From Bacteroidota bacterium (GTDB taxonomy: Bacteria > Bacteroidota > Bacteroidia > UKL13-3), in assembly GCA_947457395.1 (NCBI GenBank), contig CANGVA010000007.1, forward strand, positions 1-64,000: a stretch of DNA of 64,000 bases, read 5' to 3'. This document shows, piece by piece, positions 1 through 61,177 of this stretch. The notes below the pieces were generated by a model. That model saw nothing but the letters and a program-made list of their open reading frames with translations. It did no database searches and was not told the origin of the DNA. Position 1 is the stretch's first letter. Each line of letters starts with the position of its first letter. Both the position numbers and the translations under genes were made by a program.

Positions 1-146
1 AACTTATCAGCACACAGGAAATCAACCCTGAGTTAGGAATGAACAACCTGGAGATAAACGAATCTGAGTTGAAGGCAGGAATGTATATTGTGCGCATTAC
101 ACAAGGTGAAATAAGCAAGCATATACGTGTAGTGAAACAACAGTAA
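1..146 (+). CDS. C-terminal tail of a T9SS cargo protein (partial)
   Basis: Frame 3 is open from the window edge to a TAA at 144-146 and gives 47 residues. The sequence ends with a pattern like ELKAGMYIVRITQGE followed by a basic end (HIRVVKQQ). This matches the last strands of the type A T9SS C-terminal sorting domain, which directs proteins through the outer membrane and is cleaved by a PorU-type sortase. The rest of the protein, and so its function, lies outside the window. A clear terminator follows about 20 bases after the stop. Confidence 0.8.
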   Translation, partial: LISTQEINPELGMNNLEINESELKAGMYIVRITQGEISKHIRVVKQQ

Positions 147-36979: not shown

Positions 36980-37010
36980 TTTGTTAGACGTTGATTAAAT
37001 GCTATTTTTG
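36980..37010 (+). promoter_or_regulatory. Promoter of the polysaccharide locus
   Basis: TTTG at 36980-36983 and TATTTTTG at 37003-37010 are separated by 19 bases, a full match to the Bacteroidota -33/-7 consensus. The ORF-track start of the next gene (36999) would lie inside this promoter. That supports the later ATG at 37047. Confidence 0.75.
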
Positions 37011-37046
37011 CAACAAAACCCACATTGCGCAACGAATAAATCATCC

Positions 37047-39510: not shown

Positions 39511-40524
39511 ATGACAGAAAGAAAAATAAAATTTGCCGTTGTAGGCTGCGGTCATATTGGAAAAAGGCATGCAGAGATGATTTATCGCAACAATGAATCG
39601 GAATTGGTTGCTTTGATTGATGTAAAGCCAAAAGCAGAGTTGGGGATAGAACAATACCCGGTACCTTTTTTTGCTTCACTTCAGGAATTTTTTAATGCAG
39701 ATCTGGATGTGGATGTAATCAATATTGCTACTCCTAACGGATTTCATGCAGAACAATCGCTTATGGCATTGGAAGCAAGAAAGCATATTGTGGTGGAAAA
39801 GCCAATGGCGCTTAACAAACAGGATGCAGAGAAGGTTATTTTTAAGGCGCTCCAGGTTCATAAGCATGTATTTGCCGTAATGCAAAACCGCTATTCACCG
39901 CCATCGGTATGGATAAAAGAATTGGTAGAGAGCGGTAAGTTGGGTAAAATTTACATGATGCAGTTAAATTGCTACTGGAACAGGGATGATAGGTATTATA
40001 AGCCTGGCAGCTGGCATGGAAGCAAGGCATTGGATGGCGGCACACTCTTTACTCAGTTTTCTCATTTCATAGATATTATGTACTGGTTGTTTGGCGACAT
40101 CGATAATATCAAAGGCAAATTCAACGATTTTAACCATAAAGATTTAACTGACTTTGAAGATAGTGGTTTCGTGAGCTTTGATTTTGTTAATGGAGGCATG
40201 GGTTGTATCAACTACTCAACCTCTGTTTGGAATCAAAATCTGGAGAGCAGCATGACCATTATTGCTGAGAATGGCAGTGTAAAAATTGGCGGGCAGTATA
40301 TGAATGAGGTTGAGTACTGCCATATTAAGGACTATACCATGCCTACACTTGCTCCTACCAATCCTGGCAATGATTATGGTGCCTACAAAGGTTCGGCTCA
40401 AAACCACCATTATGTTATAGAAAATGTGGTAGATGTTTTAAAAGGCAGGGCGCCAATTACTACCAATGCGCTTGAAGGATTAAAGGTGGTCGATATGATT
40501 GAAAGAATATATCAAGCTAAATAA
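39511..40524 (+). CDS. Gfo/Idh/MocA oxidoreductase (WbpB-like)
   Basis: A 337-aa NAD(P)-dependent sugar dehydrogenase. The cofactor motif is GCGHIGKRHAEM at the N-terminus, and the EKP catalytic motif is VVEKPMAL near residue 95. The substrate-side segment CYWNRDDRYYKPGSWHGSKA with DGGTLFTQFSHFID resembles WbpB/WlbA, which oxidise C3 of UDP-GlcNAc-uronic acid on the way to 2,3-diacetamido uronic acids. The WbpB assignment is inferred. WbpA, WbpE and WbpD partners are not in the window. Confidence 0.8.
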   Translation: MTERKIKFAVVGCGHIGKRHAEMIYRNNESELVALIDVKPKAELGIEQYPVPFFASLQEFFNADLDVDVINIATPNGFHAEQSLMALEARKHIVVEKPMALNKQDAEKVIFKALQVHKHVFAVMQNRYSPPSVWIKELVESGKLGKIYMMQLNCYWNRDDRYYKPGSWHGSKALDGGTLFTQFSHFIDIMYWLFGDIDNIKGKFNDFNHKDLTDFEDSGFVSFDFVNGGMGCINYSTSVWNQNLESSMTIIAENGSVKIGGQYMNEVEYCHIKDYTMPTLAPTNPGNDYGAYKGSAQNHHYVIENVVDVLKGRAPITTNALEGLKVVDMIERIYQAK

Positions 40525-42679: not shown

Positions 42680-44146
42680 ATGGTATTCGTTAAAATCAAG
42701 TTGTTGGCTAAAGATAGTTTAATTTATGGTGTTTCCGGCATCATCAGTAAATTAATCGTTGTGCTGCTTGTTCCCGTTTATACAAGAATATTTACTCCGG
42801 AAGACTATGGCGTCATCAACCTTATTAATACTACCTTTTTATTGGTAGGTATTTTTGCGGTTTGTGCAATGGATAATGCCGCTTCCAGGTGGTTTTATGA
42901 AACAGATGATGAGCATGACAGGCGAACCTCCTTTGCCTCCTGGTTTTGGTTTCAGCTGGGCTTATCAGTGCTTATTGCAATTGTGTTTATTTTGTTTACC
43001 CCACTGGCATTAAAATTTTTATTAAATATAGAATCCAATCCTGCCAATAATCTGCTATGGATTTTACCCAGTCTGGGCTTATTATTCAATATTTTACCCA
43101 ATATGATTTGGAACTGGTATCGGTTTCAACGCAAGGCAATTTCAACGGTTGTCTTTACCCTTTCACAATCACTCACTACCATTATTTTAACGATATGTTT
43201 AGTAGTGGTATATCCCATGGGAATTCTTGGTGTTTTTGCAGCACTCATATGTTCCGGTATTCTTTTTAGCGCTATCGCATTTTTTATTCTGAGAGGGTGG
43301 ATTTCTTTAACTTACTTTAGCCTTAACAGGTTAAAGGAGATGCTTCAATTTTCATTACCCCTCATTCCTGCTTCAGTTGCAGGCTGGCTTTTAACCGGTG
43401 CAGGCTCTTATTTTATTCTTGCTTATGCCGGCAAAGCGGAAGTTGGCTTGTTTGCCATAGGAAATTCCATGGCATCCGTAGTTACGCTTTTTACAGGCTC
43501 ATTTCAGCAGGCATGGGGTCCATTTGCCTTAAGTATCATGAGAGATAAAGACGCAAAAAATGTGTATGCAAAAGTACTTTTGCTATTTGGTGCTTGTGCC
43601 TCTGTACTGGTGCTTATGATGTTCCTTTTTTCATCTGAACTACTTATGCTTTTCACCACAACTCAATATTACGGTGCTGCAATGGTTGCCGCATTACTTG
43701 CCTTAAATATTATCATCACATCTTTTTCTTACATAGCCATTACAGGTTCAACAATTGTAAAAACCAATAAGTATTATTCTGTTGGTGTAATAGCAGGTGC
43801 ATTAGTTACCATATTTTTGCACACTTTTTTAATTCCTATTTTTGGTAAAGAAGGTGCTGCCCTTTCCATGATAACCGCACAGATTTTTGCAGTTGCTTTT
43901 GTTTTCTATCATTCGCAAAAACTATATCCGATACCCTATAATTTCTTTAAACTTATGCAATTGCTTTTACCGGCCATTGGTTTGGGTTTAATCACGTTTT
44001 ACCTTATGCAAACGGCTACAATGGCTGCAGGTATACTTATAAAACTTGCTGTACTGCTAATATACATGGGGCTGTCTTATTTGATGCTGAAAAAAGAATG
44101 GCTTCAGATAAAAGACGTTATAAATGTTGAACGCGCTGAAAAGTAG
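42680..44146 (+). CDS. Wzx-type oligosaccharide flippase
   Basis: A 488-aa membrane protein of the MOP/polysaccharide-biosynthesis family with about 14 hydrophobic helices. The N-terminus (DSLIYGVSGIISKLIVVLLVPVYTRIFTPEDYG, shortened here) is diagnostic of Wzx flippases. Wzx moves undecaprenyl-linked repeat units across the inner membrane. It lies 8 bases after a glycosyltransferase gene and before the Wzz-like gene. This is typical of a Wzy-dependent pathway. Confidence 0.92.
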   Translation: MVFVKIKLLAKDSLIYGVSGIISKLIVVLLVPVYTRIFTPEDYGVINLINTTFLLVGIFAVCAMDNAASRWFYETDDEHDRRTSFASWFWFQLGLSVLIAIVFILFTPLALKFLLNIESNPANNLLWILPSLGLLFNILPNMIWNWYRFQRKAISTVVFTLSQSLTTIILTICLVVVYPMGILGVFAALICSGILFSAIAFFILRGWISLTYFSLNRLKEMLQFSLPLIPASVAGWLLTGAGSYFILAYAGKAEVGLFAIGNSMASVVTLFTGSFQQAWGPFALSIMRDKDAKNVYAKVLLLFGACASVLVLMMFLFSSELLMLFTTTQYYGAAMVAALLALNIIITSFSYIAITGSTIVKTNKYYSVGVIAGALVTIFLHTFLIPIFGKEGAALSMITAQIFAVAFVFYHSQKLYPIPYNFFKLMQLLLPAIGLGLITFYLMQTATMAAGILIKLAVLLIYMGLSYLMLKKEWLQIKDVINVERAEK

Positions 44147-44218: not shown

Positions 44219-45289
44219 ATGGAGAATAATCAAATAACATTAGGCTACCTCAGACAATTTAATCGTGCCATAATTGGCGAACTTAAGAAGCAATTTAAAT
44301 GGGTGGCTGCATTTGCTATTTTTTGCGCATTGCTTGGTCTTGGCTATGCCATACTTAAAAAAACAAGATATGAGGCAAAAATCTCTTTCTTCTTAAATGA
44401 AAAAGATATGCCAATGTCCGGGGGATTAGCAGGTTTGGCCGGTCAATTCTTTAATATGGGTATGAACAGTGAATGGCCGAGTGAAGATAAAATTAAAGAC
44501 CTTGTTTTTACCCGCAGAATCCTTGCTCAAAATTTATTTACAACCATCGAAGTGAGTGGCAAAAAGGAATTAATGGTTAATCATTTTATTGATGTCAATC
44601 ATTTTATTGATGCTTTTAAATCAGATACCATTCTGGCTGATTTTACTTATTTTTCTTCTACCAATCCTGATAAACTATCATACAAGGAAAATCATGCACT
44701 TAACCTTATCATCAGATTCATTAAGGAGTCAAATATGATTAAGGTTACCTCAACTACCAAGGAAACCATTATGGGGAACAAGGGTGGGGGAATCATCGGA
44801 TTTGAGGTTCAAACTAAGTCTGAAGTACTATCTAAAGAGTTTGCTGAAAATCTTTTAGAGGTATTAAGTGAGTTTTATATTAAAAAGGCTGTTCAGCGTG
44901 AGCAGGATAATTACTTACTCATGGTTGATAAGTGCGACTCTTTAAAAATGGTAATTGAGGAAAAAGAGCTTGAACTGGCCAGTTTTAATGACCGCTCTTT
45001 AGCCCTTGTTAAATCTCAGGCAGGCCTAACCAAGCTGCGCTTGCAAAGAGACCTTCAAATTCTGAATGTAATGTATGCAGAAGTGCTTAAAAACAAGGAA
45101 GCCATCAAATTCTCCTTGGATACACAAACACCCATATTTCAAATTATAGATGCCCCGGAATATCCACTTAACATCATCAAGCCATCCGCATTTAAAACAA
45201 CCCTAATTGGATTGGTTGTGGGTATGATTTGTGCCACTTTTTTCTTTATAGTTAGGTTCTTGTTTTTTAATCCGATGTATAAAGCTTAA
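44219..45289 (+). CDS. Wzz-type chain-length determinant
   Basis: A 356-aa protein with two membrane helices flanking a periplasmic coiled-coil region: FKWVAAFAIFCALLGLGYAI near residue 25 and LIGLVVGMICATFFFIVRF at the C-terminus. This is the Wzz/polysaccharide co-polymerase layout. It ends shortly after the second helix with no cytoplasmic tyrosine kinase, so it is PCP-1-like. A tandem VNHFID duplication occurs near residues 120-131. It regulates polymer length together with the Wzy-like protein encoded downstream. Confidence 0.88.
   Translation: MENNQITLGYLRQFNRAIIGELKKQFKWVAAFAIFCALLGLGYAILKKTRYEAKISFFLNEKDMPMSGGLAGLAGQFFNMGMNSEWPSEDKIKDLVFTRRILAQNLFTTIEVSGKKELMVNHFIDVNHFIDAFKSDTILADFTYFSSTNPDKLSYKENHALNLIIRFIKESNMIKVTSTTKETIMGNKGGGIIGFEVQTKSEVLSKEFAENLLEVLSEFYIKKAVQREQDNYLLMVDKCDSLKMVIEEKELELASFNDRSLALVKSQAGLTKLRLQRDLQILNVMYAEVLKNKEAIKFSLDTQTPIFQIIDAPEYPLNIIKPSAFKTTLIGLVVGMICATFFFIVRFLFFNPMYKA
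44576..44611 (+). repeat. Tandem 18-bp repeat inside the Wzz-like gene
   Basis: GTTAATCATTTTATTGAT is followed directly by GTCAATCATTTTATTGAT, with one mismatch. It encodes VNHFID twice and keeps the frame. Confidence 0.9.
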
Positions 45290-45292
45290 TTC

Positions 45293-47158
45293 ATGTGTGG
45301 TATTTCTGTTATTATTGATACCTCAGGAAACCGTGTATCAGAAGCTGTTATTAAGCCATTTAATGACATCATTGCCCACAGGGGGCCTGATGATGAGGGT
45401 TTTTATTTTGATCAAAATATAGCACTCGGGCACAGGAGACTATCTATTATTGATTTAAGTAAAGATGGTCATCAACCTATGGCAAGCGGAGATGATCTGG
45501 TTATCATTTTTAACGGTGAAATTTATAATTACATTGAATTAAGAAAAGAACTAACAGATGTAGGCTATACCTTTCGCACCAAAACAGATACCGAAGTTAT
45601 ACTCAACGCATACCGCCACTGGGGAGAGGATTGTTTACATAAGTTTAACGGCATGTGGGCTTTTGTCATTTATCACCGCCCAAGCGGTAAGGTATTCGGA
45701 GCCCGAGACAGATTTGGTGTAAAGCCATTTTATTTCTACCAACATCAGCAATATTTCTGTATTGCATCAGAAATTAAACAATTTACTACGCTACCCGGAT
45801 GGCAGGCATGGGCCAATGTTTCGCGTATAACAGACTTTTTAATTTACAGCATCAGTGACCATACGGCAGAAACCATGTTTGCTGATGTATTTCAGCTTCG
45901 GGGTGGCTATGCACTGCGTTTTAACCTGGCAGAAAAGCAACCGCACATATTTAAGTGGTATGATATAAGAGAAAAATGCGCAGAAAGACCAATACCCTAT
46001 GCCGAGGCCTGTCAGCAATTTAGAGATAAGCTACGTGATGCAGTAAAACTTAGACTTAGAGCTGATGTAAAGATTGGTTCTTGTCTTTCCGGTGGCCTTG
46101 ATAGTTCCAGTATTGTTGGCCTGATACATGATGAGTTGAAGCTTTCAGGATTAAACCACCTTCAGGAAACGGTTTCGGCCTGTGCCACAGATATTCGTTT
46201 TGATGAGCAGGAATTTATTGATGTAATCATCTCTGAAAAACAAATTGTAAATCATAAACTATTCCCATCCTTTAAGACATTTACAGATAAGGTTGCCGCA
46301 CTCACCTGGCACCAGGATGAGCCTTTTGGCTCTACCAGCATATTTGCTCAGTGGGAGGTTTTTAATGAAGCGGCAAATCATGGCTTAATCGTAATGCTGG
46401 ATGGGCAAGGTGCGGATGAGTCGCTGGCAGGATATGACCAATACTATCAGGTATATTTGTCTCAATTATTGGCGCAGTTTAACATCATCTCATTTTTACA
46501 ATTATTTCCGTTTGTTAAAAAACGATTAAAGGTATCAACATTCAAGCTACTGGGTATTGTAGCCGCTTCCTTCTTACCCAATGGTCTGGCAAAAAAACTA
46601 AGGCAAAAGAACAACCAAAATAACCACAGCTACCTGCGTGCAGAAGTATGGAATCATTATCATGGTTTTGATTTTGCCATCTATAGAAATGTAAAAGCCT
46701 TTTCGGCAGATATGCTGGGAGGGTTGCATGTTTCAAAATTGTTAAGGTATGAAGACCGCAACTCTATGGCACATAGTATAGAATCTCGTGTACCTTTTCT
46801 TGATTTTCGCTTTGTGGAGTTTATTATGTCTTTACCCGCTTCATTTATTGTGCACAAGGAGGTTAATAAAAAAGTTTTACGCGATAGTATGAAAGGCATT
46901 GTTCCCGATAAAATACTGGAGCGCAGGGATAAGAAAGGATTTTTAACTCCTGAAACAGTTTGGATTAATGAAAATAAAGAAGTTTGGTTTAACTGGTTAA
47001 AAGAAGCCGAGGTGGTGCTGGCTCCCATCATAAAAGCAGGAGTGGCCAACCAGTTTCTTAAAGAAGTGAATAAAGGCGATATTTCCATGGGGTCTGTTTA
47101 CTGGAAAATCATTTCGCTGAGTTTTTGGGCTAAAAGGTTTAAGGTTCAGTTTAAATAA
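45293..47158 (+). CDS. AsnB-type glutamine amidotransferase (asparagine-synthase-like)
   Basis: A 621-aa class II glutamine amidotransferase. The nucleophile is Cys2 in MCGISV, with HRGPDDEGF and GHRRLSIIDLS in the glutaminase domain. The synthetase domain has the ATP pyrophosphatase loop SCLSGGLDSSS near residue 268. Inside polysaccharide loci such AsnB-like proteins usually amidate uronic acids on nucleotide sugars (as WbpS does) rather than make asparagine. I infer that here from context. It lies 3 bases after the Wzz-like gene. Confidence 0.88.
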   Translation: MCGISVIIDTSGNRVSEAVIKPFNDIIAHRGPDDEGFYFDQNIALGHRRLSIIDLSKDGHQPMASGDDLVIIFNGEIYNYIELRKELTDVGYTFRTKTDTEVILNAYRHWGEDCLHKFNGMWAFVIYHRPSGKVFGARDRFGVKPFYFYQHQQYFCIASEIKQFTTLPGWQAWANVSRITDFLIYSISDHTAETMFADVFQLRGGYALRFNLAEKQPHIFKWYDIREKCAERPIPYAEACQQFRDKLRDAVKLRLRADVKIGSCLSGGLDSSSIVGLIHDELKLSGLNHLQETVSACATDIRFDEQEFIDVIISEKQIVNHKLFPSFKTFTDKVAALTWHQDEPFGSTSIFAQWEVFNEAANHGLIVMLDGQGADESLAGYDQYYQVYLSQLLAQFNIISFLQLFPFVKKRLKVSTFKLLGIVAASFLPNGLAKKLRQKNNQNNHSYLRAEVWNHYHGFDFAIYRNVKAFSADMLGGLHVSKLLRYEDRNSMAHSIESRVPFLDFRFVEFIMSLPASFIVHKEVNKKVLRDSMKGIVPDKILERRDKKGFLTPETVWINENKEVWFNWLKEAEVVLAPIIKAGVANQFLKEVNKGDISMGSVYWKIISLSFWAKRFKVQFK

Positions 47159-48462: not shown

Positions 48463-49763
48463 TAGCGCATACGAATATGTTTGGAAATATGATTAAGAAT
48501 AGAATAGAAGGTATAACCATTTATTCTGTTTTTCTGTTTCTACTCTTCTATGCCTCACCTTTTATTGATAGCTTTACCGGATTTCTTATTTACTCTGATG
48601 TTATACCTGTTGGTGGAGGAAACGTTTCGCCATCTGTTGTTTTAAGATTGCTTATTTTTTTTATGGGTTTTGTTTTTATTACGAAGGCTCAATTTCGCAT
48701 CATCCTTTCAGTTGTTCTATTAATCGTCATATTTGAGTTTATAGGCTTTTTTGCTGTGCACAATCAGTTAGCAGGTTTTTTTGTAGGAATTAACTATTCG
48801 TTCAAAACCGTTTATGCGATTATGTTGTGCATGGTAATCTATACTTTCTTGGAATCAAGACGATTAGGTTTTGACGATCTACTGCTCATCTTCCGCACAT
48901 GTGTTTTACTTTATGCTTTGGTCATTATTGTACCTTCTGCATTTGGGCTAGGTGTATCAACATACGGAAAAAACAGTGCTACCTGGGGTAGAATTGGGTT
49001 TTTAGCCAGCGGAAATGGGGCAGGTGCTGTAATGGGTATTGGATCCCTTATTTCGCTTTATATTTTCAATAAACGAAAGAAAAAAGCAGATTTGTTTATT
49101 TATATAATTACACTTGTCACATGTTATATTATTGCTACCAAAGGTACCCTGCTCTTTTCTGCAGTTAATCTCCTTATTATTTTTTATCTGATGAAATGGA
49201 GGTATAAGTTACTTTCGGTTACCCTTATTTTATTGCTTATAACAACAGTCTCTGATCAGGTAATTAATTTATTGCTCCAATCTATAGATGTTATCAAATA
49301 CAGATATGAGCGTTCCCCAAATTTTATCTTGTTTCTTACCAGTGGCAGGATAAGTTATTTAGACTATGCTCTCGATCAATATAATCTTGATGGCTTTGCA
49401 TTTTTTAGGCTATTTTTTGGTTTCGGGGCTTTTCAATCTTTCCGGGCTACTGATTTTGATTTTGATATTGGAAAAGCACAATACTATTTGGAAGCTGAAT
49501 TGTTTGATGTGTTCTTTATTTACGGTATTTTTGGTACGCTATGCTACCTGTTATTCTTTATCCTTACTTTCGTTGCAGGCTATAAAAATAAACGAACATT
49601 CTTTCTTATTCCTTGGACTTTGTGCACGATCTATTCTATGTTCGCGGGACATATGATTTTTAATGGGATGTCAATACTTGCTATTGTTGTTCTGTTTAAT
49701 CTTATAATATACCGTAATACTAAGTTTGAGCATACCCAATCAACCGAATTAAATGCAACCTGA
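48459..49763 (+). CDS. Wzy-like O-antigen polymerase / ligase-type membrane protein
   Basis: A 434-aa inner-membrane protein with about 10-12 hydrophobic helices and one larger external loop near residues 270-340 (FGFGAFQSFRATDFDFD). The layout matches Wzy polymerases and WaaL ligases, which share little sequence. Because it sits between glycosyltransferases in a locus with Wzx and Wzz, a Wzy role is the best guess. It overlaps the preceding gene by 4 bases and the wecB-type gene by 11 bases. Confidence 0.8.
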   Translation: MIAHTNMFGNMIKNRIEGITIYSVFLFLLFYASPFIDSFTGFLIYSDVIPVGGGNVSPSVVLRLLIFFMGFVFITKAQFRIILSVVLLIVIFEFIGFFAVHNQLAGFFVGINYSFKTVYAIMLCMVIYTFLESRRLGFDDLLLIFRTCVLLYALVIIVPSAFGLGVSTYGKNSATWGRIGFLASGNGAGAVMGIGSLISLYIFNKRKKKADLFIYIITLVTCYIIATKGTLLFSAVNLLIIFYLMKWRYKLLSVTLILLLITTVSDQVINLLLQSIDVIKYRYERSPNFILFLTSGRISYLDYALDQYNLDGFAFFRLFFGFGAFQSFRATDFDFDIGKAQYYLEAELFDVFFIYGIFGTLCYLLFFILTFVAGYKNKRTFFLIPWTLCTIYSMFAGHMIFNGMSILAIVVLFNLIIYRNTKFEHTQSTELNAT

Positions 49764-50883
49764 TAGAAGAAAAATACTTATCGTATTTGGTACTAGGCCT
49801 GAGGCAATAAAACTGGCACCGCTTATTAGTCAGATGAAAAGCCATACGGATTCATTTGAAGTTAAGGCCTGCTTTACCGGACAGCACAAGGAAATGGTAG
49901 CAACCATTCTTAGCTTTTTTAAAATCACTCCTGATTATGATTTGCAAATAATGAGGCCTGGTCAAACACTTATTGAAATCATGACTGGAATATTGGATTC
50001 TTTTTCAAAGATTTTAGATGATTATAAACCAGATTTAGTGGTAGTGCAGGGCGATACCTCAACAGCCTTTGCCGCTGCATTAGTTGCCTATTACAAAAAA
50101 ATTAAAATAGCACATGTTGAAGCCGGACTCCGCAGCTTTGATTTATATTCTCCATTCCCGGAAGAAGGCAACAGAAAACTAATTGGTCAGATTGCTGATT
50201 TTCATTTTACACCTACAGAAAATGCAACAAGGAACTTGACTAATGAAGGTCATGCTAAGGGGATTTATCAGGTTGGTAATACAGTTATAGATGCTTTATA
50301 TGAAGGTTTGCGTATAATTAATAATGATGAAGCTGTTTATGTGAGTTATTTTGAGAAATATTTTGATCTAAGTAAGAAGTTGGTTTTAATTACAGGACAT
50401 AGAAGAGAGAGTTTTGGAGATAAATTTATTGAATTCTGTGATGCGGTGAAAACACTTGCAACAAAATATACTGAGTATAACTGGGTTTATCCGGTTCATT
50501 TGAACCCAAATGTTCAGGAGCCTGTGCGCAAGTATTTGTCCGGCTTATCTAATGTAATTTTGATGGAGCCACTGGATTATCCTTATCTGATATGGCTGCT
50601 TAAGCAAAGTGAGTTTGTGCTTACAGACTCCGGTGGTATTCAGGAGGAGGCTCCTAGTCTTGGTAAACCGGTTTTAGTAACCAGAGATGTTACCGAACGG
50701 CAGGAAGGAGTAGAGGCTGGAACAGCAGTGCTTGTCGGAACCAATTATACTAAAATTGTAAAGCTAGCCTCTGAGCTTATCGATGATCATTCAATTTATA
50801 ATAAAATGGCTAATGCGGTAAATCCTTATGGAGATGGTACTTCATCTGCTCAGATCATAGAAATACTTCGCAAGCATTTGTAA
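49753..50883 (+). CDS. UDP-N-acetylglucosamine 2-epimerase (WecB/WbpI family)
   Basis: A 376-aa GT-B-like epimerase. Signatures are VFGTRPEAIKLAPLI, VVQGDTSTAFA, HVEAGLRSFDLYSPFPEEGNR, a GHRRESFGDKF motif and TDSGGIQEEAPSLGKPVL. The family inverts C2 of UDP-GlcNAc (WecB) or of UDP-2,3-diacetamido-glucuronic acid (WbpI). With the WbpB-like gene in the same locus, WbpI activity is possible. The sequence alone does not separate the two. It overlaps the polymerase gene by 11 bases. Confidence 0.9.
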   Translation: MQPDRRKILIVFGTRPEAIKLAPLISQMKSHTDSFEVKACFTGQHKEMVATILSFFKITPDYDLQIMRPGQTLIEIMTGILDSFSKILDDYKPDLVVVQGDTSTAFAAALVAYYKKIKIAHVEAGLRSFDLYSPFPEEGNRKLIGQIADFHFTPTENATRNLTNEGHAKGIYQVGNTVIDALYEGLRIINNDEAVYVSYFEKYFDLSKKLVLITGHRRESFGDKFIEFCDAVKTLATKYTEYNWVYPVHLNPNVQEPVRKYLSGLSNVILMEPLDYPYLIWLLKQSEFVLTDSGGIQEEAPSLGKPVLVTRDVTERQEGVEAGTAVLVGTNYTKIVKLASELIDDHSIYNKMANAVNPYGDGTSSAQIIEILRKHL

Positions 50884-52221: not shown

Positions 52222-54039
52222 ATGAAAGTAGCCATTATCGGAACAGTAGGCATACCAGCCAGATACGGAGGTTTTGAAACCCTTGCCGAACAATTGGCCG
52301 AGCACGCTGCATCTGATTTGCAGGTAACGGTTTATTGCAGCAAGAAAGCGTATCAAACACATCCGCAAACATACAAGCATGCCAATTTGGTTTACCTGTC
52401 GCTTGATGCAAATGGTGTTCAAAGTATTTTTTATGATATCCTAAGCATTTTGCATGCTATTAAACGCAACGATGTATTGCTTATACTGGGGGTTTCAGGT
52501 ACCATTATTTTACCATTTGTGAGGCTCATATTCCCGTTTAGAAAAATTATTACCAATATTGACGGATTGGAGTGGAAACGGGATAAGTGGAACAATCTGG
52601 CACGTAAATTTTTAAGATATTCAGAGTCACTGGCCATTCATTACTCAGATCAGGTTATTGCCGATAACCAGGCTATCAGACAATATGTAACAGATGCGTA
52701 TGGTGCCAATCCCAAACTTATTGCTTATGGAGCCAATCACTGCCATACACCTTCACCTCCGGATTCCCGGTTTGCTGAAGGAAGCTATGATTTTACCGTT
52801 TGCCGTATAGAGCCTGAAAATAATATACATCTCATCCTTCAGGCATATGCAGCCATGCCTGCAGAAAAACTGGTAATTGTAGGCAACTGGCAAATAAGTG
52901 AGTATGGTAAGCAATTGCGCAAACAATATGCAGCATACACTCATATCTATTTGTTAGATCCGATTTACGATTTGTATGAGCTCAATAAACTGCGCAAACA
53001 TTGCAGGTATTATTTACATGGCCACAGCGCAGGCGGCACCAATCCTTCGCTGGTTGAAGCCATGTACTTAAAAAGAAATATCATCGCATTTGCTGTAACC
53101 TATAATAAAGAAACTACCGAGCACAAAGCCGCCTATTTTAAGGATGTGCAGGAGTTGATTGCCATTGTAAGCGGCAACGCGCTTGTAAATAATGCTGCTG
53201 TTAATTTTGAGATAGCAAACAGAAGGTATAGCTGGCTGGTTATTGCGAAGCAGTATGAGGCATTATACCTTACGCCAAAGGCATCCAATCATGCTACAAA
53301 AGTTACCATTATAACGGTGGTATTAAATAATCAATCTTTCATTGAGCAAGCCATTTGCTCTGTTTTAAGCCAGTCTTATGCAAATATTGAGTATATCGTG
53401 GTTGACGGTGGTTCTACAGATGGGAGCATTGATATCATTGAACGATATCTGGATAAGATCGCGGCATTTATATCGGAACCTGATTCAGGACCTTACGATG
53501 CAATGAATAAAGGTATTGAACTTGCTACCGGAGATGTCATCGGATTCTTACATGCAGATGATTTCTATTCGCACAATGATGTAATTGCAAAAATGGTTTA
53601 TTGCCTGCATGAGCCGGAAACCGAAAGTGTTTACAGTGATCTGGAGTACGTAAGCAGAAGGGATAAAAATCTGGTTATTCGAAAATGGAAAGCAGGTTTA
53701 TTAAACAGGAAATCGTTTTACAAAGGCTGGATGCCTCCGCATCCTACTTTTTTCGTGAAGAAGAGCGTGTATAAGCGCCTGGGGGGCTATAATATCAAGC
53801 TCAAATCATCGGCTGATTATGAGTTGATGCTGCGCATGCTATGTTTGCATAAGGTAAAAGCAGCCTATATTCCGGAAGTATTGGTTAAAATGAGGGTAGG
53901 TGGGCAAAGCAATCGCTCATTTACCAATAGGGTTAAGGCGCATTTGGAAGACCGCAAGGTATGGAAAATGCTTGGACTAAAACCCAGATGGTTCACACTC
54001 TGGATGAAACCACTTCAAAAAATAAAACAGTATTTTTAA
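52222..54039 (+). CDS. Fused glycosyltransferase: DUF1972/GT4 plus GT2
   Basis: A 605-aa protein with two complete transferase modules. Residues 1-350 are a DUF1972 rhamnosyltransferase-like GT-B module (GTVGIPARYGGFETLAEQLA, HGHSAGGTNPSLVEAM). After a short linker, residues 360-605 form a GT-A family 2 module (VTIITVVLNNQSFIEQAI, VVDGGSTDGS, a LHADD metal motif). In most genomes these are separate genes. The frame is continuous and each module has its motifs, so this is a true fusion that could add two sugars in sequence. The specificities are unknown. Confidence 0.88.
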   Translation: MKVAIIGTVGIPARYGGFETLAEQLAEHAASDLQVTVYCSKKAYQTHPQTYKHANLVYLSLDANGVQSIFYDILSILHAIKRNDVLLILGVSGTIILPFVRLIFPFRKIITNIDGLEWKRDKWNNLARKFLRYSESLAIHYSDQVIADNQAIRQYVTDAYGANPKLIAYGANHCHTPSPPDSRFAEGSYDFTVCRIEPENNIHLILQAYAAMPAEKLVIVGNWQISEYGKQLRKQYAAYTHIYLLDPIYDLYELNKLRKHCRYYLHGHSAGGTNPSLVEAMYLKRNIIAFAVTYNKETTEHKAAYFKDVQELIAIVSGNALVNNAAVNFEIANRRYSWLVIAKQYEALYLTPKASNHATKVTIITVVLNNQSFIEQAICSVLSQSYANIEYIVVDGGSTDGSIDIIERYLDKIAAFISEPDSGPYDAMNKGIELATGDVIGFLHADDFYSHNDVIAKMVYCLHEPETESVYSDLEYVSRRDKNLVIRKWKAGLLNRKSFYKGWMPPHPTFFVKKSVYKRLGGYNIKLKSSADYELMLRMLCLHKVKAAYIPEVLVKMRVGGQSNRSFTNRVKAHLEDRKVWKMLGLKPRWFTLWMKPLQKIKQYF

Positions 54040-54114: not shown

Positions 54115-54145
54115 TTGTTTTGCAGGGTGCACGTGGTTAAATTTG
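54115..54145 (+). promoter_or_regulatory. Promoter of the PorU2-like gene
   Basis: TTG at 54115-54117 and TAAATTTG at 54138-54145 are separated by 20 bases, matching the Bacteroidota consensus. A leader of about 40 bases follows. A short ACCCT-TTA-AGGGT hairpin (54103-54115) just upstream might weakly terminate the preceding transcript. Confidence 0.6.
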
Positions 54146-54191: not shown

Positions 54192-57100
54192 ATGAAAAAA
54201 GCAATTGCCCAACTGCTGTTTTTTGCTGCTATGCCTTTGCTGCTGCAAGCGCAGCCATACGGATTTGAATGGATTAAGCCTTATCAGCCTTATTATAAAT
54301 TTAAAATAGCTCAAACAGGGGTTTATCGCATACCTGCATCTTTACTCAGTGCGTCCGGCATCAATCTTTCAAATATGAATCCCGGCCGGTTTCAGGTTTT
54401 TAAAAATGGGAAGGAAATTCCGTTGTTTATTCATGGCGCAACAGACGGGCAGGTAAATGGCAACGATTTTATTGAGTTTTATGCTGAGCAGAATGATGGA
54501 GAGCAAGATAAGGAATTATACGCCAACCCGTCCGATCAGCCTCATTCTTATTACAGCATGGTTTCTGATACTGCGGCTTATTTTCTTACCATATTACCTG
54601 ATACCAGCGTTTTGCAAGGAAAGCGATTTGAGCCATTTACCGAGAATAATTATGGAAGCTATACGCCTGAGACTTTTTTTATGCATGAAGAAAAATTCTT
54701 CAGGGCAGATGAATACGTGGATGGCATTAATCTAAACGCAGGTGGCGAAAAATACAATTCATCAGAATATACCGATGGAGAGGGTTGGGCAGCGGCACGT
54801 GTTGGCTTAGGCGGTTCTGCAACGTATACCGTAAACACACCATTCCCGTTTGCCACAGGACCCTTGCCCACAGTAGAAACAAAGGTTATTGGTGTATCAG
54901 ATTATTATCTGGGTAATCCAACTGTTAATCACCATGTGCAGATGAGCGTGGCTCCTGCAGAAAATCCTGTTTTTTCTGTTTACAAAGATTTTTTGTTTAA
55001 AGGATATATCTCTCAGCAATATAGCGGAGCGTTAAACTATAGTCAGATTGGCAATGGGCAAACTTTGTTCAGGTTATCGGTAATCAATGATCTGTTTGTT
55101 GCTTCAGATTTTAATTGTTTGTCATATATCCGACTGGTTTATGCAAGGCAATATCAATTGGGCGGTACAACCAACCTGCGTTTAAAGGTATTGCATAACC
55201 AGAACGGCACCCGCAGCCTCATTCAATTTTCAGGTTATGGCAATGGTGTGCAAAGTTCCCCCGTTATTTTTGATTTTACCAATGGTAAACGCATTACAAG
55301 TATTGTAAATGCGGGCATTGCTCGCGCACTGGTTGAGAACAACGGACAACCAACAGACATCTTTTTGTTTGATAGCCTCTCCGCAAGCAATGTGTTAAGG
55401 CTTGAACCGGTAAGTTTCTCGTTTATCAATCCGGCTCAGAATTATGAGTTTATACTGGTAAGCCACGAGGAATTGTCGGATGCCGCAACACAATATGCCA
55501 ACTACCGCAGTCAGCGTTTTAAGGTCTTAAATATTAAGGCAAGCAGCCTGTATGATTTATATACCTATGGTAACCCACACCCGCTGGCCCTGCGCAGAAT
55601 GGCCAAGCACCTCATTAATCTTTCTACAGCCACTCCGCAATATCTGTTACTGCTCGGTAAAGGTTATCAAACCAACTTACTTCGCAATCAACGTTACTAT
55701 GAAGCCAATCTGGTGCCTGCACTTGGCGTTCCGTCAGCTGATCACCTGATTTCAGCAGGTATAAAGGGTAATGGTTTTGTGCCGGAAATTGCAACCGGAC
55801 GCATAGCGGCTGTAAACAATGCAGAAGCTTTGAATTATTTGCAAAAACTGATTTACTATGAAACCCATCCGGATAGCATTTTGTCCTGGAGAAAAAACAT
55901 CTTACACATCACGGGTGGTGAAAATCAAAATCAGCAAAACGCATTTAAATTTTTCATGAATGGCAATACCAATGTCATTAAGGGTAAAAGTTTTGGAGCT
56001 AATGTAACCTCCTATAATAAATCTACGACTGAGCCAACCCAGGGTAATTTGCGAGATAAGTTAATGCAGGTTGTAAATGATGGGGTGAGCATGCTTACCT
56101 TTTTGGGTCACGGTTCGGCAACTGTGCTAGATGTAAATATTGGGAGCTTAGTTGAGTTGAATAATATCAATAAATATCCTTTCTATTATTTTAATGGCTG
56201 TAATGTTGGTAATCCAAGTGATATGGACCCTTCTAATAAACCGGATATTTATGGTATTGATTTTATTTGTGCGGCCAACAAAGGAGCAATCGGGTGGCTG
56301 GCTCACTCCAATCTTACGCTGGATGGCAGCCTATACAGGCAAATTAATTTATTTTATAATAGTTTCAGCAATTCACATTACGGCAAACCCATCGGAACAA
56401 TTTTGAGAGAGGCATTAAAAGCAGGAGGGGTTGCCAGCTTGCAGGATAAATCGCATAATATGCAGCTTACCTTGCAGGGGGATCCTGCCGTTCGCATTTA
56501 CAGCCCGTTAAAACCGGATTATAAAGTAAGCCTGGCAGATGTTTACACCATTCCACAAAATCCAAATGCAGTAATGGATTCTTTTAGGCTTGCCGTTGTG
56601 GTAAATAATTATGGAAGAGCCAATGATGATACCGTTGAAGTAAGCCTTAAACGCACCCTGCCTGATAACTCAGTTGTGCAATATGCACCTGTTTCTATCA
56701 CAGACCTATATCTGAAAGATACCGTTTATTTCTGGGTAAAGGCAAAAGAGTTAAAATCCTTTGGTAATAACCAGTTTGATATAAGCATTGATGCGCAGGC
56801 TAAACTGGACGAAATTAGCAGACTGAATAATGAAGTAAGGTATACACTTTTTTTACCAAGCTCAGGTATCACGCTGTTGTCTCCAATGCCATATGCTGTT
56901 GCGGGTAATGATAGTGTTGAATTCATTATTCAGAACAATGATTTTTTTGCAAAAAATATAGGGTATGAAATAGAGTTAGATACGACTGTAGCGTTCAACT
57001 CTCCTTTACTAAAAAGATCAGGAATTATTAAAGGTAATACCATTATTAAATGGCTGCAGGTTATAACTACAGCCGATACAATTGTTTATTACTGGAGGGC

Positions 57101-59147
57101 AAAAACAGAAGTTAATCCTGAGTGGGTAACAGGTTCATTTACGCACATACCTGCTGCAGAAGATGGCTGGATGCAAAGCCATTACAACCAATGGGAGGGA
57201 AGCACCGGAAAAGTGAATATGGAAACAGATACAGTAGCCCGCAGATTAGCTTTTGTACCAAACTCACAATTAGTCATTTCTAAAATTGGTCGCTGGCATC
57301 ATTCAAATCTGGGTATTTATGATCCTTACATTGCTAATCCGGGTGCCGGGGGATGTCTGGGTGGTGGTGGCACTGTTTGTCTGATTTATGATGGTTCAAG
57401 CCTTAGCAGGATGGAGGCCCCGGGAATCCCATACAATTGTAATCCGGTTCCGGGTTATGCTTACTATGTTTTTAAAACAGGTACAATTGCCGGACAGGAT
57501 GATTTTATCAGGTTTATGGATACACTTAGGGTAGGAACCTATATGGCCATATATTCATTTTATGATGCAGGTATTCCCTCGTGGAAACCCGAGTTGCGTG
57601 CAAGGTTGGCACAATTTGGCTCATTGAAAGTGGCCAATGCCCAAAGTCAGTTTACGGCTTTTACACTCATTGGTCGTAAGGGAGAAACACCCGGTATGGC
57701 TTCAGAAGATACCTTATTTAACGACCGTTTTACCACCGGAGACTCTGTGGTTTGCGAAGCTCAGCGCCTGCTTGAAGGTAAGTGGTTTACAGGAAGTATC
57801 ACTTCCGCAAGAATAGGGCCTGTAAAGCAATGGAATAAAGTGTTGTACAAGTTTCATTCACTTGAAAATAATGGATACGACAGGCAGAAGGTGTACCTGA
57901 TTGGTATAACCCAGAATAATGAAGATAGCATACTGGCTACCGATATTGCTTCAGGATTTGATATCAGCACAATTAATACAACTGTTTTTCCTTACCTAAA
58001 GCTTAAAGCAGAGTTCCTGGATAGTTTCAATAGAACGCCCAATCAATTTGGCTATTGGATGGTAACATATTCCGAGCCAACTGAAGGATTAATAGATAAT
58101 AAGAACTATCAGTTTCATGCTTCCAGAATACAGCAGGGCGATAGCCTTCACATTAATTTATCGTTTACAAATATTCATAAGCAGCCTTTCGATAGTGTGC
58201 CTTGTTTGCTAACCATCAGAGATCCGAAGAATGCAGTTATTTACAGCGTAAATAAGATAATGAGTCGGATTGAGAAAGACCAATCAGTAGTATTCTCAGA
58301 TGTTATAGCAACACGTAATTTTTCAGCGGGTATGCATACATTAAATGTCTCCTTTAACTATCAGCAGCAAATTCCTGAATTCCTGATACAGAATAACCTG
58401 TTTGAGCAAAAGTTTGATGTATGGGAAGATAAATCCAATCCAATGCTGGATGTTACATTTGATGGTTTTAGAATAATGAATGGTGATTTTGTATCACCAA
58501 CACCGGTTATCCGAATTACCTCAAAGGATGATAATAAGTTTTTATTGCAGCAGGATACCAATACGTTCAGCTTATTTTTAAAACGCCCGACTCAGGCGAT
58601 TTTCGAACAGATACCTCTAAACTCATCTTATGTTAATTTCGTGAAAGCGAATGCAGAGCAAAATACAGCCATGCTGGAATTTACTCCTGAAAAGCTAACG
58701 GATGGTTTATATACGCTGCGTGTACAATCGCGCGATGCCACAGGCAATGTAGCCGGTAACAATGCTTATGAAATAGATTTTAATGTGGTAAACGAAAGTA
58801 CCATCACCGCTTTCTTCCCATATCCAAATCCTGCAACTACCAATATCAGGTTTGTGTTTACCTTAACTGGCAGCAAAGTTCCTGATGAATTGCTGGTGCG
58901 CATCACCACGCTATCAGGAAAGATTGTAAAAGAAATAACACGAGCAGAGTTTGGTGATATGAAGATTGGACACAATATCTCTCAATTTGCATGGGATGGT
59001 AATGATACTTATGGAGACAGGCTTGCAAACGGAGTTTATCTCTATCAGGTTTTTACCAGAATAAACGGTCAGGATATTAAAAAGCGCAATACTTCAGCAG
59101 ATCAATTTGTGCTGCATAACGTTGGCAAAATTTATTTAATGAAATAA
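54192..59147 (+). CDS. C25 (gingipain-fold) protein with FlgD-like C-terminus, PorU2-like T9SS sortase candidate
   Basis: A 1651-aa exported protein. The signal peptide precedes a large beta-rich N-terminal region. The C25 domain (about residues 440-780) has the catalytic pair His640 (TFLGHGSAT) and Cys670 (FNGCNVGNP), spaced as in gingipains. Several beta-sandwich domains follow. The C-terminus has a FlgD-like/sorting-type domain (FFPYPNPATTNIRF, WDGNDTYGDRLANGVYLYQV). PorU is the T9SS sortase that cleaves cargo tails and attaches them to A-LPS. The length and C-terminus fit the longer PorU2 form, an assignment made by recollection. It lies inside the polysaccharide locus with its own promoter. 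Confidence 0.82.
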   Translation: MKKAIAQLLFFAAMPLLLQAQPYGFEWIKPYQPYYKFKIAQTGVYRIPASLLSASGINLSNMNPGRFQVFKNGKEIPLFIHGATDGQVNGNDFIEFYAEQNDGEQDKELYANPSDQPHSYYSMVSDTAAYFLTILPDTSVLQGKRFEPFTENNYGSYTPETFFMHEEKFFRADEYVDGINLNAGGEKYNSSEYTDGEGWAAARVGLGGSATYTVNTPFPFATGPLPTVETKVIGVSDYYLGNPTVNHHVQMSVAPAENPVFSVYKDFLFKGYISQQYSGALNYSQIGNGQTLFRLSVINDLFVASDFNCLSYIRLVYARQYQLGGTTNLRLKVLHNQNGTRSLIQFSGYGNGVQSSPVIFDFTNGKRITSIVNAGIARALVENNGQPTDIFLFDSLSASNVLRLEPVSFSFINPAQNYEFILVSHEELSDAATQYANYRSQRFKVLNIKASSLYDLYTYGNPHPLALRRMAKHLINLSTATPQYLLLLGKGYQTNLLRNQRYYEANLVPALGVPSADHLISAGIKGNGFVPEIATGRIAAVNNAEALNYLQKLIYYETHPDSILSWRKNILHITGGENQNQQNAFKFFMNGNTNVIKGKSFGANVTSYNKSTTEPTQGNLRDKLMQVVNDGVSMLTFLGHGSATVLDVNIGSLVELNNINKYPFYYFNGCNVGNPSDMDPSNKPDIYGIDFICAANKGAIGWLAHSNLTLDGSLYRQINLFYNSFSNSHYGKPIGTILREALKAGGVASLQDKSHNMQLTLQGDPAVRIYSPLKPDYKVSLADVYTIPQNPNAVMDSFRLAVVVNNYGRANDDTVEVSLKRTLPDNSVVQYAPVSITDLYLKDTVYFWVKAKELKSFGNNQFDISIDAQAKLDEISRLNNEVRYTLFLPSSGITLLSPMPYAVAGNDSVEFIIQNNDFFAKNIGYEIELDTTVAFNSPLLKRSGIIKGNTIIKWLQVITTADTIVYYWRAKTEVNPEWVTGSFTHIPAAEDGWMQSHYNQWEGSTGKVNMETDTVARRLAFVPNSQLVISKIGRWHHSNLGIYDPYIANPGAGGCLGGGGTVCLIYDGSSLSRMEAPGIPYNCNPVPGYAYYVFKTGTIAGQDDFIRFMDTLRVGTYMAIYSFYDAGIPSWKPELRARLAQFGSLKVANAQSQFTAFTLIGRKGETPGMASEDTLFNDRFTTGDSVVCEAQRLLEGKWFTGSITSARIGPVKQWNKVLYKFHSLENNGYDRQKVYLIGITQNNEDSILATDIASGFDISTINTTVFPYLKLKAEFLDSFNRTPNQFGYWMVTYSEPTEGLIDNKNYQFHASRIQQGDSLHINLSFTNIHKQPFDSVPCLLTIRDPKNAVIYSVNKIMSRIEKDQSVVFSDVIATRNFSAGMHTLNVSFNYQQQIPEFLIQNNLFEQKFDVWEDKSNPMLDVTFDGFRIMNGDFVSPTPVIRITSKDDNKFLLQQDTNTFSLFLKRPTQAIFEQIPLNSSYVNFVKANAEQNTAMLEFTPEKLTDGLYTLRVQSRDATGNVAGNNAYEIDFNVVNESTITAFFPYPNPATTNIRFVFTLTGSKVPDELLVRITTLSGKIVKEITRAEFGDMKIGHNISQFAWDGNDTYGDRLANGVYLYQVFTRINGQDIKKRNTSADQFVLHNVGKIYLMK

Positions 59148-60140
59148 ATGGCCATGAAAGAGATAAGTCTGGTTTATCTTTCACAAGGTGCTCATAAAAC
59201 AGGCGGCTATTTACATGAATCATTCTTTTTTGAAAGCCTTTCAAAGGAGTTGGGTAACAGATATCATATCCATGTTTCCGCTAAAAGACTCAATAAAAAT
59301 GTTAGCGGTTTGGCTGGTTATTTGAAATTGATTTTATGGTATGCAAGGCAAGCAAATGCGCAAATTCAGGTTGTACCGCTGAGGGGTGGGCTCCCTTCGG
59401 CTTTTTGCAACAAAGCCAATAATCATTTCACATTGGTGGTTATACATGCCGAGGCTCAGCCTTATTCTTCTCTTTTGCTCAGGTTGTACTATCAGCTATT
59501 TGTATGGCTTAAAAAACAAGGGCTATTTAGCCGTTGCAAACTGGTTGTGATTCATTCATACTGGAAAACTTTTTTTGAAAAGAAAGGCATAGCAGGAGAG
59601 GATATCCTGATATTTCCTAATTTCTTTGATACTGCCTATTACAAACAATTTAGCGAGCCTGTTAAAAAGAAGCAGGTGCATCTTGGTATGCCCGATCAGA
59701 AACTGAATACCGGTATTTTTAAACTTGCTGAAAAGCTAAGCCTTGCAGGCTATGACTGTTATTTTTCTGCATCTGATAAAGAAATGAAATTACCTGCATC
59801 AGATTTTTATCGCGTTGCATATTTTGAAAGCAGTGAAGCATACCTGAAAGAAATGGCTTGCAGCCTCTGCACCATCCAAATGCCTGCCATAGCCGAAGGT
59901 TGGTCTCGCGTTGCTCATGAAAGTATGCTGGTGGGTACACCTGTTATTGGTTACGATAAAGGTGGTTTGGGTCAGTTGCTAAAGGAGTCTGGTTCTGCAA
60001 TAGTTCAGGATGTCGAGCAAGCATTCCAGTTCATTACAACAGGTAAATTTACCTTGCCCGATGATTCATTTATTAATAAGTATGATACATCGATGGCACC
60101 TGTCTATGCTAAGCAAATCACTGATACATTACATTTGTGA
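59148..60140 (+). CDS. Glycosyltransferase, GT4-like
   Basis: A 330-aa GT-B protein. The N-terminal part has YLSQGAHKTGGYLHE, with a Gly-rich loop. The C-terminal part has the EX7E motif EGWSRVAHE, followed by SMLVGTPVIGYDKGGLGQLL. The ATG directly follows the stop of the C25 gene (TAA ATG), with a second ATG two codons later, so it is translated from the same transcript. It may therefore work with the sortase-like protein or simply be part of the polysaccharide set. Confidence 0.83.
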   Translation: MAMKEISLVYLSQGAHKTGGYLHESFFFESLSKELGNRYHIHVSAKRLNKNVSGLAGYLKLILWYARQANAQIQVVPLRGGLPSAFCNKANNHFTLVVIHAEAQPYSSLLLRLYYQLFVWLKKQGLFSRCKLVVIHSYWKTFFEKKGIAGEDILIFPNFFDTAYYKQFSEPVKKKQVHLGMPDQKLNTGIFKLAEKLSLAGYDCYFSASDKEMKLPASDFYRVAYFESSEAYLKEMACSLCTIQMPAIAEGWSRVAHESMLVGTPVIGYDKGGLGQLLKESGSAIVQDVEQAFQFITTGKFTLPDDSFINKYDTSMAPVYAKQITDTLHL

Positions 60141-61177
60141 TGCAAAAACTTTCACATATAATTTTTAACAAGGTTTTTCAGTTAGCTGGTTTGTTAAACA
60201 GACTGAGTAATTCAAGTCTCTTGGCTTTAACTTTAGGAATAATGCTGTTGATGGTATTACCCCGTTTCAATCGCAATGCTGCAATTGTTGAAAGGCCCAT
60301 GAATGATGCACGCTATTTTGTTGCCTATGTAGAATACTTTAGAGGTTTGGAACCTTCAGACGTTATCAGGCCTGCTTCCAACTGGAGGTTGGGTGTGCCA
60401 TTTATTGCCGCATACTTGCCCTTTTCACCACTTACCTCAATCAACATAGTAAATATTTTCGCTCTAACACTGGCTGTTTATCTGCTTTATCTGTCACTTC
60501 GCGCATTAACTATTGCTAAAGGATATTGCTGGCTTGGATGCTGGTTGTTTCTTGTTTCATTCCCCACGTTTTATTATACCAGTATTGGTTATGTAGATCC
60601 GGGGGTGCTTCCATTTATGGCACTTATGGTTTATGCAACCGTGCGTAAGCATTTTTTATTTGCAATGCTTGCCATGATAGCCGGTGCACTTACCAAAGAA
60701 ACCATTATCTTAATGTTGCCTTTTTATTTTATTTCAGGTGTCATTGAAAAAAGAAAATATATTTGGTTACAGGCGGCAATTCTTCTGTTTCAATATGTGC
60801 TCATTAACTGGTTGCTGCGTAAATATGCATTTGTTTCACCGGGAGAGCATAATCCTTCTTTCTGGAGTATTTCTGCATATGCAGTGATGTCTAATGTGAT
60901 GCGCTTAAACTCTTATATGGCACCGCTGCTAAGTTTGGGTTTGCCTTCGCTGTTTTTTTTCCTGTATATACGATACCTGGCACCTCCTGATGTCCTCAAA
61001 TCAGTTTTACTGCGTTCTATTTTATTCAGTATTCCAGGATTTGTGTTGGTTTTCCTGTTAACCTTTATTACCACATACTGTGATGGACGTATCATTTGGC
61101 AGGCCTATTTTCTGCTCATACCGGGTTTTATAAACGAACTAAATCGGTTTAAGCCATTGCAGGCGCATCAGTCATGA
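60140..61177 (+). CDS. Multi-pass membrane protein, GT-C-like
   Basis: A 345-aa membrane protein with about nine hydrophobic helices. The segment AMIAGALTKETIILMLP resembles the KE motif of DUF2029/GT-C-type membrane glycosyltransferases. An early RFNRNAAIVERPMNDARYF loop could hold the acidic catalytic residues. GT-C enzymes use polyprenyl-phosphate sugars on the periplasmic side. The ATG at 60140 overlaps the upstream TGA by one base. The ORF track instead chose a GTG at 60137. The class is plausible, but the function is not proven. Confidence 0.7.
   Translation: MQKLSHIIFNKVFQLAGLLNRLSNSSLLALTLGIMLLMVLPRFNRNAAIVERPMNDARYFVAYVEYFRGLEPSDVIRPASNWRLGVPFIAAYLPFSPLTSINIVNIFALTLAVYLLYLSLRALTIAKGYCWLGCWLFLVSFPTFYYTSIGYVDPGVLPFMALMVYATVRKHFLFAMLAMIAGALTKETIILMLPFYFISGVIEKRKYIWLQAAILLFQYVLINWLLRKYAFVSPGEHNPSFWSISAYAVMSNVMRLNSYMAPLLSLGLPSLFFFLYIRYLAPPDVLKSVLLRSILFSIPGFVLVFLLTFITTYCDGRIIWQAYFLLIPGFINELNRFKPLQAHQS

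Follow-up and report, generated by a model that had tools for sequence, protein, structure and literature searches.

The sugar to which type IX secretion system (T9SS) cargo is attached has been elucidated in P. gingivalis and T. forsythia, and WbpS of the Wbp/Vim linking-sugar pathway has been placed in the family TIGR03108 (PMC7468200). The sortase PorU (PDB 6za2 in P. gingivalis) trims secreted cargo and attaches it to a surface sugar, and PorU2 would be a paralogue of PorU. A profile for a "putative type IX secretion system sortase PorU2" (NF052324) and one for PorV2 (NF052325) are available in NCBIfam. The open literature yielded no article that mentions PorU2 by name, an absence that is no proof of novelty; as far as titles and abstract openings reveal, the papers retrieved for PorV2 do not suggest a T9SS protein, though one concerns P. 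gingivalis. PorU2 and PorV2 are already named by NCBIfam, and the arrangement with glycosyltransferases (GTs) described below seems to be new.

Identification of a PorU2-type C25 protein

The window, i.e. the whole stretch of 64,000 nucleotides analysed here, contains an open reading frame that starts with ATG and encodes a protein with a signal peptide-like N terminus. The features of this gene are as follows.

54192-59147, plus strand: PorU2-type T9SS C25 protein, 1651 aa (NF052324 profile, C25 tree, PDB fold match)
55452-56495, plus strand: C25 catalytic domain, residues 421-768 (Pfam Peptidase_C25, PF01364, 180.7 bits)
56109-56111, plus strand: codon of catalytic His640 in the motif GHGS (His in 46/46 aligned PorU2 proteins)
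56199-56201, plus strand: codon of catalytic Cys670 in the motif NGCxxGN (Cys in 46/46 aligned PorU2 proteins)
58821-59081, plus strand: T9SS type A sorting domain (CTD), residues 1544-1630 (TIGR04183)

The NCBIfam PorU2 profile matched residues 8-880 of the deduced protein with 748 bits (cut-off 450), and the PorU profile NF033707 gave 208 bits on the same protein, below its cut-off of 420. A preliminary description of this DNA had proposed a PorU2-like C25 protein with His640 and Cys670; the open reading frame, the PF01364 match, the invariance of both residues, the NF052324 score and the grouping with PorU2 in the tree all agree with it. The FlgD-like tail reported there does correspond to a C-terminal domain, which is really the T9SS type A sorting domain, and the Pfam matches to FlgD_ig and Big_13 were weak and both under their cut-offs. 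The score of the sorting domain was itself marginal (23.2 bits versus a cut-off of 23), yet the domain is conserved across the 46-protein alignment; the protein ends with GKIYLMK, and the GK near the C terminus is almost invariant in this alignment.

A sequence search against the PDB gave nothing useful, whereas a fold search with a structure model of residues 22-880 (mean pLDDT 91.2) returned P. gingivalis PorU (6za2) as the best match with an E value of 1e-30, followed by the gingipains RgpB and Kgp. The C25 fold, the Cys-His pair and an own CTD are common to PorU2 and P. gingivalis PorU. PorU2 differs from the latter by its greater length, by its position in a separate clade and by the motif at the catalytic Cys, which is NGCxxGN rather than TCEFS (ATCEFS when the preceding residue is included).

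In a tree of 73 C25 domains, among them 46 PorU2 rows and no gingipain sequence, all 46 PorU2 rows fell on one side with PorU apart (100/99 support). The PorU side also held two rows not classed as PorU beforehand, L146, a PorU by profile (1261 bits), and L142, which is long-branched and unassigned. The genome encodes just two C25 proteins that were found, PorU and PorU2. A secreted gingipain-like protease was therefore ruled out by profile, C25 count and tree, the last of which was built without gingipain sequences. The gene was also rejected as the canonical PorU, as the latter is encoded elsewhere in the genome and the NF033707 score is below the cut-off. We consider the identity as PorU2 secure.

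Other entries of the tree were recorded separately. On its PorU2 side, L155 (241-2802, G058:C78) is a PorU2-like protein in which both the catalytic His and the catalytic Cys are replaced, although its type A CTD is strong (44 bits); it may be an inactive relative and a secreted protein itself. L131 and L140 (G067:C22:10183-15248) are C25 genes that lie near each other on the same contig; both fall into the PorU group and may have arisen by duplication of PorU.

Glycosyltransferase genes on both sides of porU2

The genes next to that of PorU2, and a promoter-like site, are as follows.

52222-54039, plus strand: GT4 (DUF1972/Cps2T-like) fused to GT2, the GT2 half being orthologous to the upstream GT2 of genera g2, g9, g11 and g13
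54115-54145, plus strand: putative Bacteroidota-type promoter TTG-N20-TAAATTTG (pattern match)
59148-60140, plus strand: GT4-like glycosyltransferase, start abutting the PorU2 stop (weak Pfam GT matches, model, linkage)
60137-61177, plus strand: possible glycopolymer-formation membrane protein (weak NCBIfam AZOBR_p60025 match; 4-bp overlap with the GT4-like gene)

The preliminary description had placed the gene between glycosyltransferases, with its stop codon abutting the start of the next, and both statements hold: the GT4-GT2 fusion lies on one side and the GT4-like gene on the other, where TAA is directly followed by ATG. It had further credited the gene with its own promoter. One candidate site is indeed found in the 152-bp gap upstream of the PorU2 gene, and the sister genome L032 has the same site. 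It is the sole match in the window, a number that is not significant with 2.3 expected by chance window-wide, and a comparable site was present in just 6/46 loci, so that a conserved PorU2 promoter was discarded. A putative promoter of this particular gene is plausible from the pattern match.

The structure model of the GT4-like protein was confident (pLDDT 91.7), with GT-B glycosyltransferases as best PDB matches. Using a 10-row alignment as query, the GT4-like gene was found in 48 genomes, all from the family of this genome, and in 0/39 outside it. Its distance to the PorU2 gene was ≤1.5 kb in 24 genomes and ≤25 kb in 31, and in 17 it was on another contig. In most close pairs (g1, g2, g7, g9, g11, g13) it lies downstream on the same strand, in g6 it is divergent; PorU2 stop and GT4-like start abut in g1 and G011 and overlap by one base in G013. 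Several g3 genomes carry the GT4-like gene 10-17 kb from the PorU2 gene, and it was not found in several PorU2-bearing family members (g4, g5, g12 and some g14). Directly upstream of PorU2, an orthologous GT2 was identified in 13 of 56 genomes searched, from the five genera g1, g2, g9, g11 and g13. Its identity between genera was 44-63%, compared with about 25-35% for the other GT2s of those loci, and in this genome and G011 it forms a fusion with another GT part. The glycosyltransferase linkage is hence present in close relatives, far above chance.

Does PorU2 lie in a polysaccharide locus merely by chance, without a functional tie? This appears very improbable, since around 0.06 genomes would be expected to have the GT4-like gene within 1.5 kb versus the 24 observed (a calculation that ignores shared ancestry), and since two different glycosyltransferases are conserved, one on each side, even though in several family members (g3, g5, g10, g12, g14) the loci read have no glycosyltransferase adjoining PorU2. 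Pairwise distances among the PorU2 proteins correlated with those among the GT4-like proteins (r = 0.65 without a near copy, Mantel p = 0.004), a correlation that shared ancestry alone could yield; shared ancestry inflates the Mantel value as well as the counts of linked genomes. What the neighbours of PorU2 give is association rather than function.

PorV2 as the usual neighbour of PorU2, and the T9SS of this genome

Among 97 genomes of relatives searched with profiles, PorU2 was above the cut-off in 85 and a PorV2-like protein was present in 89; the co-occurrence of the two gave a Fisher p of 2e-4 with counts tallied by hand. Outside the family of this genome, 29 genomes have both genes, and in 26 of these PorV2 is the same-strand neighbour of PorU2, in the order PorV2 then PorU2. 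Inside the family, where 13 genomes were analysed by script for adjacency and the remainder compared by contig, PorV2 was seen adjacent to PorU2 only in G012. Glycan-related neighbours of PorU2 are rare in other families (GT2, 3/127, and GT1, 2/127 nearby proteins); in this genome's family, GT2 accounted for 12/125 nearby proteins. Class-wide, the usual partner of PorU2 is PorV2 and not a glycan gene, and in this family PorV2 moved away and glycosyltransferases joined PorU2. The present protein shares the whole-length profile match, the C25 domain, the CTD and the invariant His/Cys with NF052324 members, and differs from those of most families, which lie beside PorV2, in that PorV2 is on another contig and glycosyltransferases flank its gene. 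A search for named relatives retrieved one locus, from a Sphingobacteriales MAG.

In the profile search, a single PorU2 was found in the genome itself (G000; 2.54 Mb, 34 contigs). On another contig the canonical PorU (1310 bits) precedes PorV (499 bits), and a gene of the PorP family and a GldJ-like gene, the latter below its cut-offs, are nearby. PorV2 (466 bits, cut-off 325) is on a third contig (C6) and is not adjacent to PorU2. Searched with TIGR04183, the genome gave 97 matches to the type A CTD, 96 of them above the cut-off, which corresponds to approximately 95 CTD cargo proteins. One is in the window, at 11531-13651 on the minus strand, a 706-aa protein whose type A CTD (48 bits) makes it a likely T9SS cargo. 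A further type A CTD match opens both the window (42-140) and contig C10 (42-140) with identical coordinates, score and frame length, which suggests that the contigs break at a cargo tail present as a repeat.

With PorV2 as the class-wide neighbour in place of glycosyltransferases, PorU2 might act as a signal peptidase on the CTD of some cargo proteins, which it releases or passes to PorV2, while the flanking glycosyltransferases act on an unrelated EPS or LPS and stay in place by inherited gene order. EPS loci are variable regions, and descent within one family can preserve gene order. The persistence of the GT4-like gene next to PorU2 though flanking genes change, with a divergent orientation in g6, speaks against this explanation, which we regard as possible but on the unlikely side. 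Because the GT4-like gene stays adjacent as flanking genes differ, the pair outlives rearrangement.

The surrounding polysaccharide locus and the Wbp/Vim pathway

The region 36999-63715 encodes Wza-, Wzx- and Wzz-like proteins, several glycosyltransferases, a WecB-type epimerase, a Gfo/Idh enzyme and an AsnB-type amidotransferase:

36999-39497, plus strand: Wza-like polysaccharide export protein (Poly_export and SLBB)
39511-40524, plus strand: Gfo/Idh dehydrogenase, WlbA/WbpB-like (best PDB matches 3q2i and 3q2k)
42680-44146, plus strand: Wzx-like flippase (PF01943)
44219-45289, plus strand: Wzz-like chain-length protein (PF02706)
45293-47158, plus strand: AsnB-type amidotransferase, WbpS-like candidate (asn_synth_AEB, 435 bits)
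49753-50883, plus strand: WecB-type UDP-GlcNAc 2-epimerase (TIGR00236, 456 bits)

The Gfo/Idh enzyme matched 3q2i (197 bits) and 3q2k (185 bits), which we take to be WlbA, over the full length, and WbpB (3o9z) with 48 bits. By these full-length matches it is the predicted candidate for the WbpB step in the locus. The amidotransferase scored 373 bits with TIGR03108, below the cut-off of 817. None of WbpA, WbpD and WbpE is encoded in the locus; TviB/WbpA-, WbpE- and WbpD-like candidates are present only on other contigs of this genome. The VimA-type families PF13480 and TIGR03019 had no match in the genome, a search that a divergent VimA could escape. WlbA/WbpB-like genes occur in 77/97 genomes, mostly unlinked to PorU2; they lie within 25 kb of it only in G000, G001, G011, G015 and G021, from three genera.

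Two regions elsewhere in this genome were noted in their own right. L109 (8418-15803; contig C2, approximately 216400-223800) contains a second Gfo/Idh gene, a hexapeptide acyltransferase, a DegT aminotransferase and an AsnB-type gene, and is nearer to a full Wbp-like set than the locus in the window. L108 (798-5111; contig C30) contains a TviB-like UDP-GlcNAc 6-dehydrogenase above the cut-off together with SDR, hexapeptide transferase and DegT genes.

In comparison with the Wbp/Vim pathway (PMC7468200), the WlbA/WbpB-like dehydrogenase and the WbpS-like amidotransferase of the locus are alike, whereas candidates for the other Wbp steps are located elsewhere in the genome and VimA was not found. 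A complete Wbp/Vim locus was rejected, as the region offers candidates for just two of the steps and no VimA-type gene was found in the genome; the assignment of the epimerase to WbpI was likewise dropped, as it is closer to WecB than to WbpI-type 2-epimerases. The two candidates, along with the Wbp-like genes on other contigs, could mean that the locus makes a Wbp/Vim-type linking sugar as in P. gingivalis, used by PorU2 or PorU. With the missing steps, the WecB-like epimerase, the two VimA-type families lacking a match and the mostly unlinked WbpB-like genes of other genomes, we judge this quite doubtful.

Proposed role of PorU2 and its neighbours

A signal peptide-like N terminus and an own CTD suggest that the T9SS probably secretes PorU2 and that the protein then stays at the cell surface, where the PorV2 barrel encoded elsewhere would probably be what holds it. 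By analogy with PorU, the Cys-His C25 domain probably cleaves the CTD from a subset of type A cargo, and the new C terminus of the cargo would then be passed to an amine-bearing surface glycan. In the family, the GT2 upstream and the GT4-like gene downstream would have become attached to the PorU2 gene most likely for the reason that their products add sugars to the acceptor glycan of PorU2 or to a co-expressed glycan, assembled here within the Wza/Wzx/Wzz polysaccharide locus. The most economical reading of this linkage, which persists across genera as other neighbours change, is that the flanking enzymes would serve the acceptor glycan. To PorU2 as a surface sortase paralogue whose flanking glycosyltransferases act on the acceptor or a co-expressed glycan we give about even chances.

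The preliminary description had suggested that the locus may build the glycan serving as cargo anchor. The conserved glycosyltransferase linkage gives this proposal partial support. With PorV2 as the usual partner class-wide, an EPS locus that varies around PorU2 among relatives, a partial Wbp set and VimA not found, it is a reasonable but unproven hypothesis. A more specific version, in which some of the T9SS cargo would be attached by PorU2 to an exopolysaccharide of the Wza/Wzx/Wzz type instead of LPS, with the flanking GT2 and GT4-like enzymes making the acceptor end, is speculative and rather unlikely; if true, it would be a case of a sortase carrying its own acceptor-building enzymes along.

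The pairing with two specific glycosyltransferases, conserved among relatives, sets PorU2 apart from PorU within one genome and provides named genes for asking which glycan PorU2 uses. The presence of the same two sugar-adding neighbours across several related genera suggests that they may help to make the sugar of PorU2.
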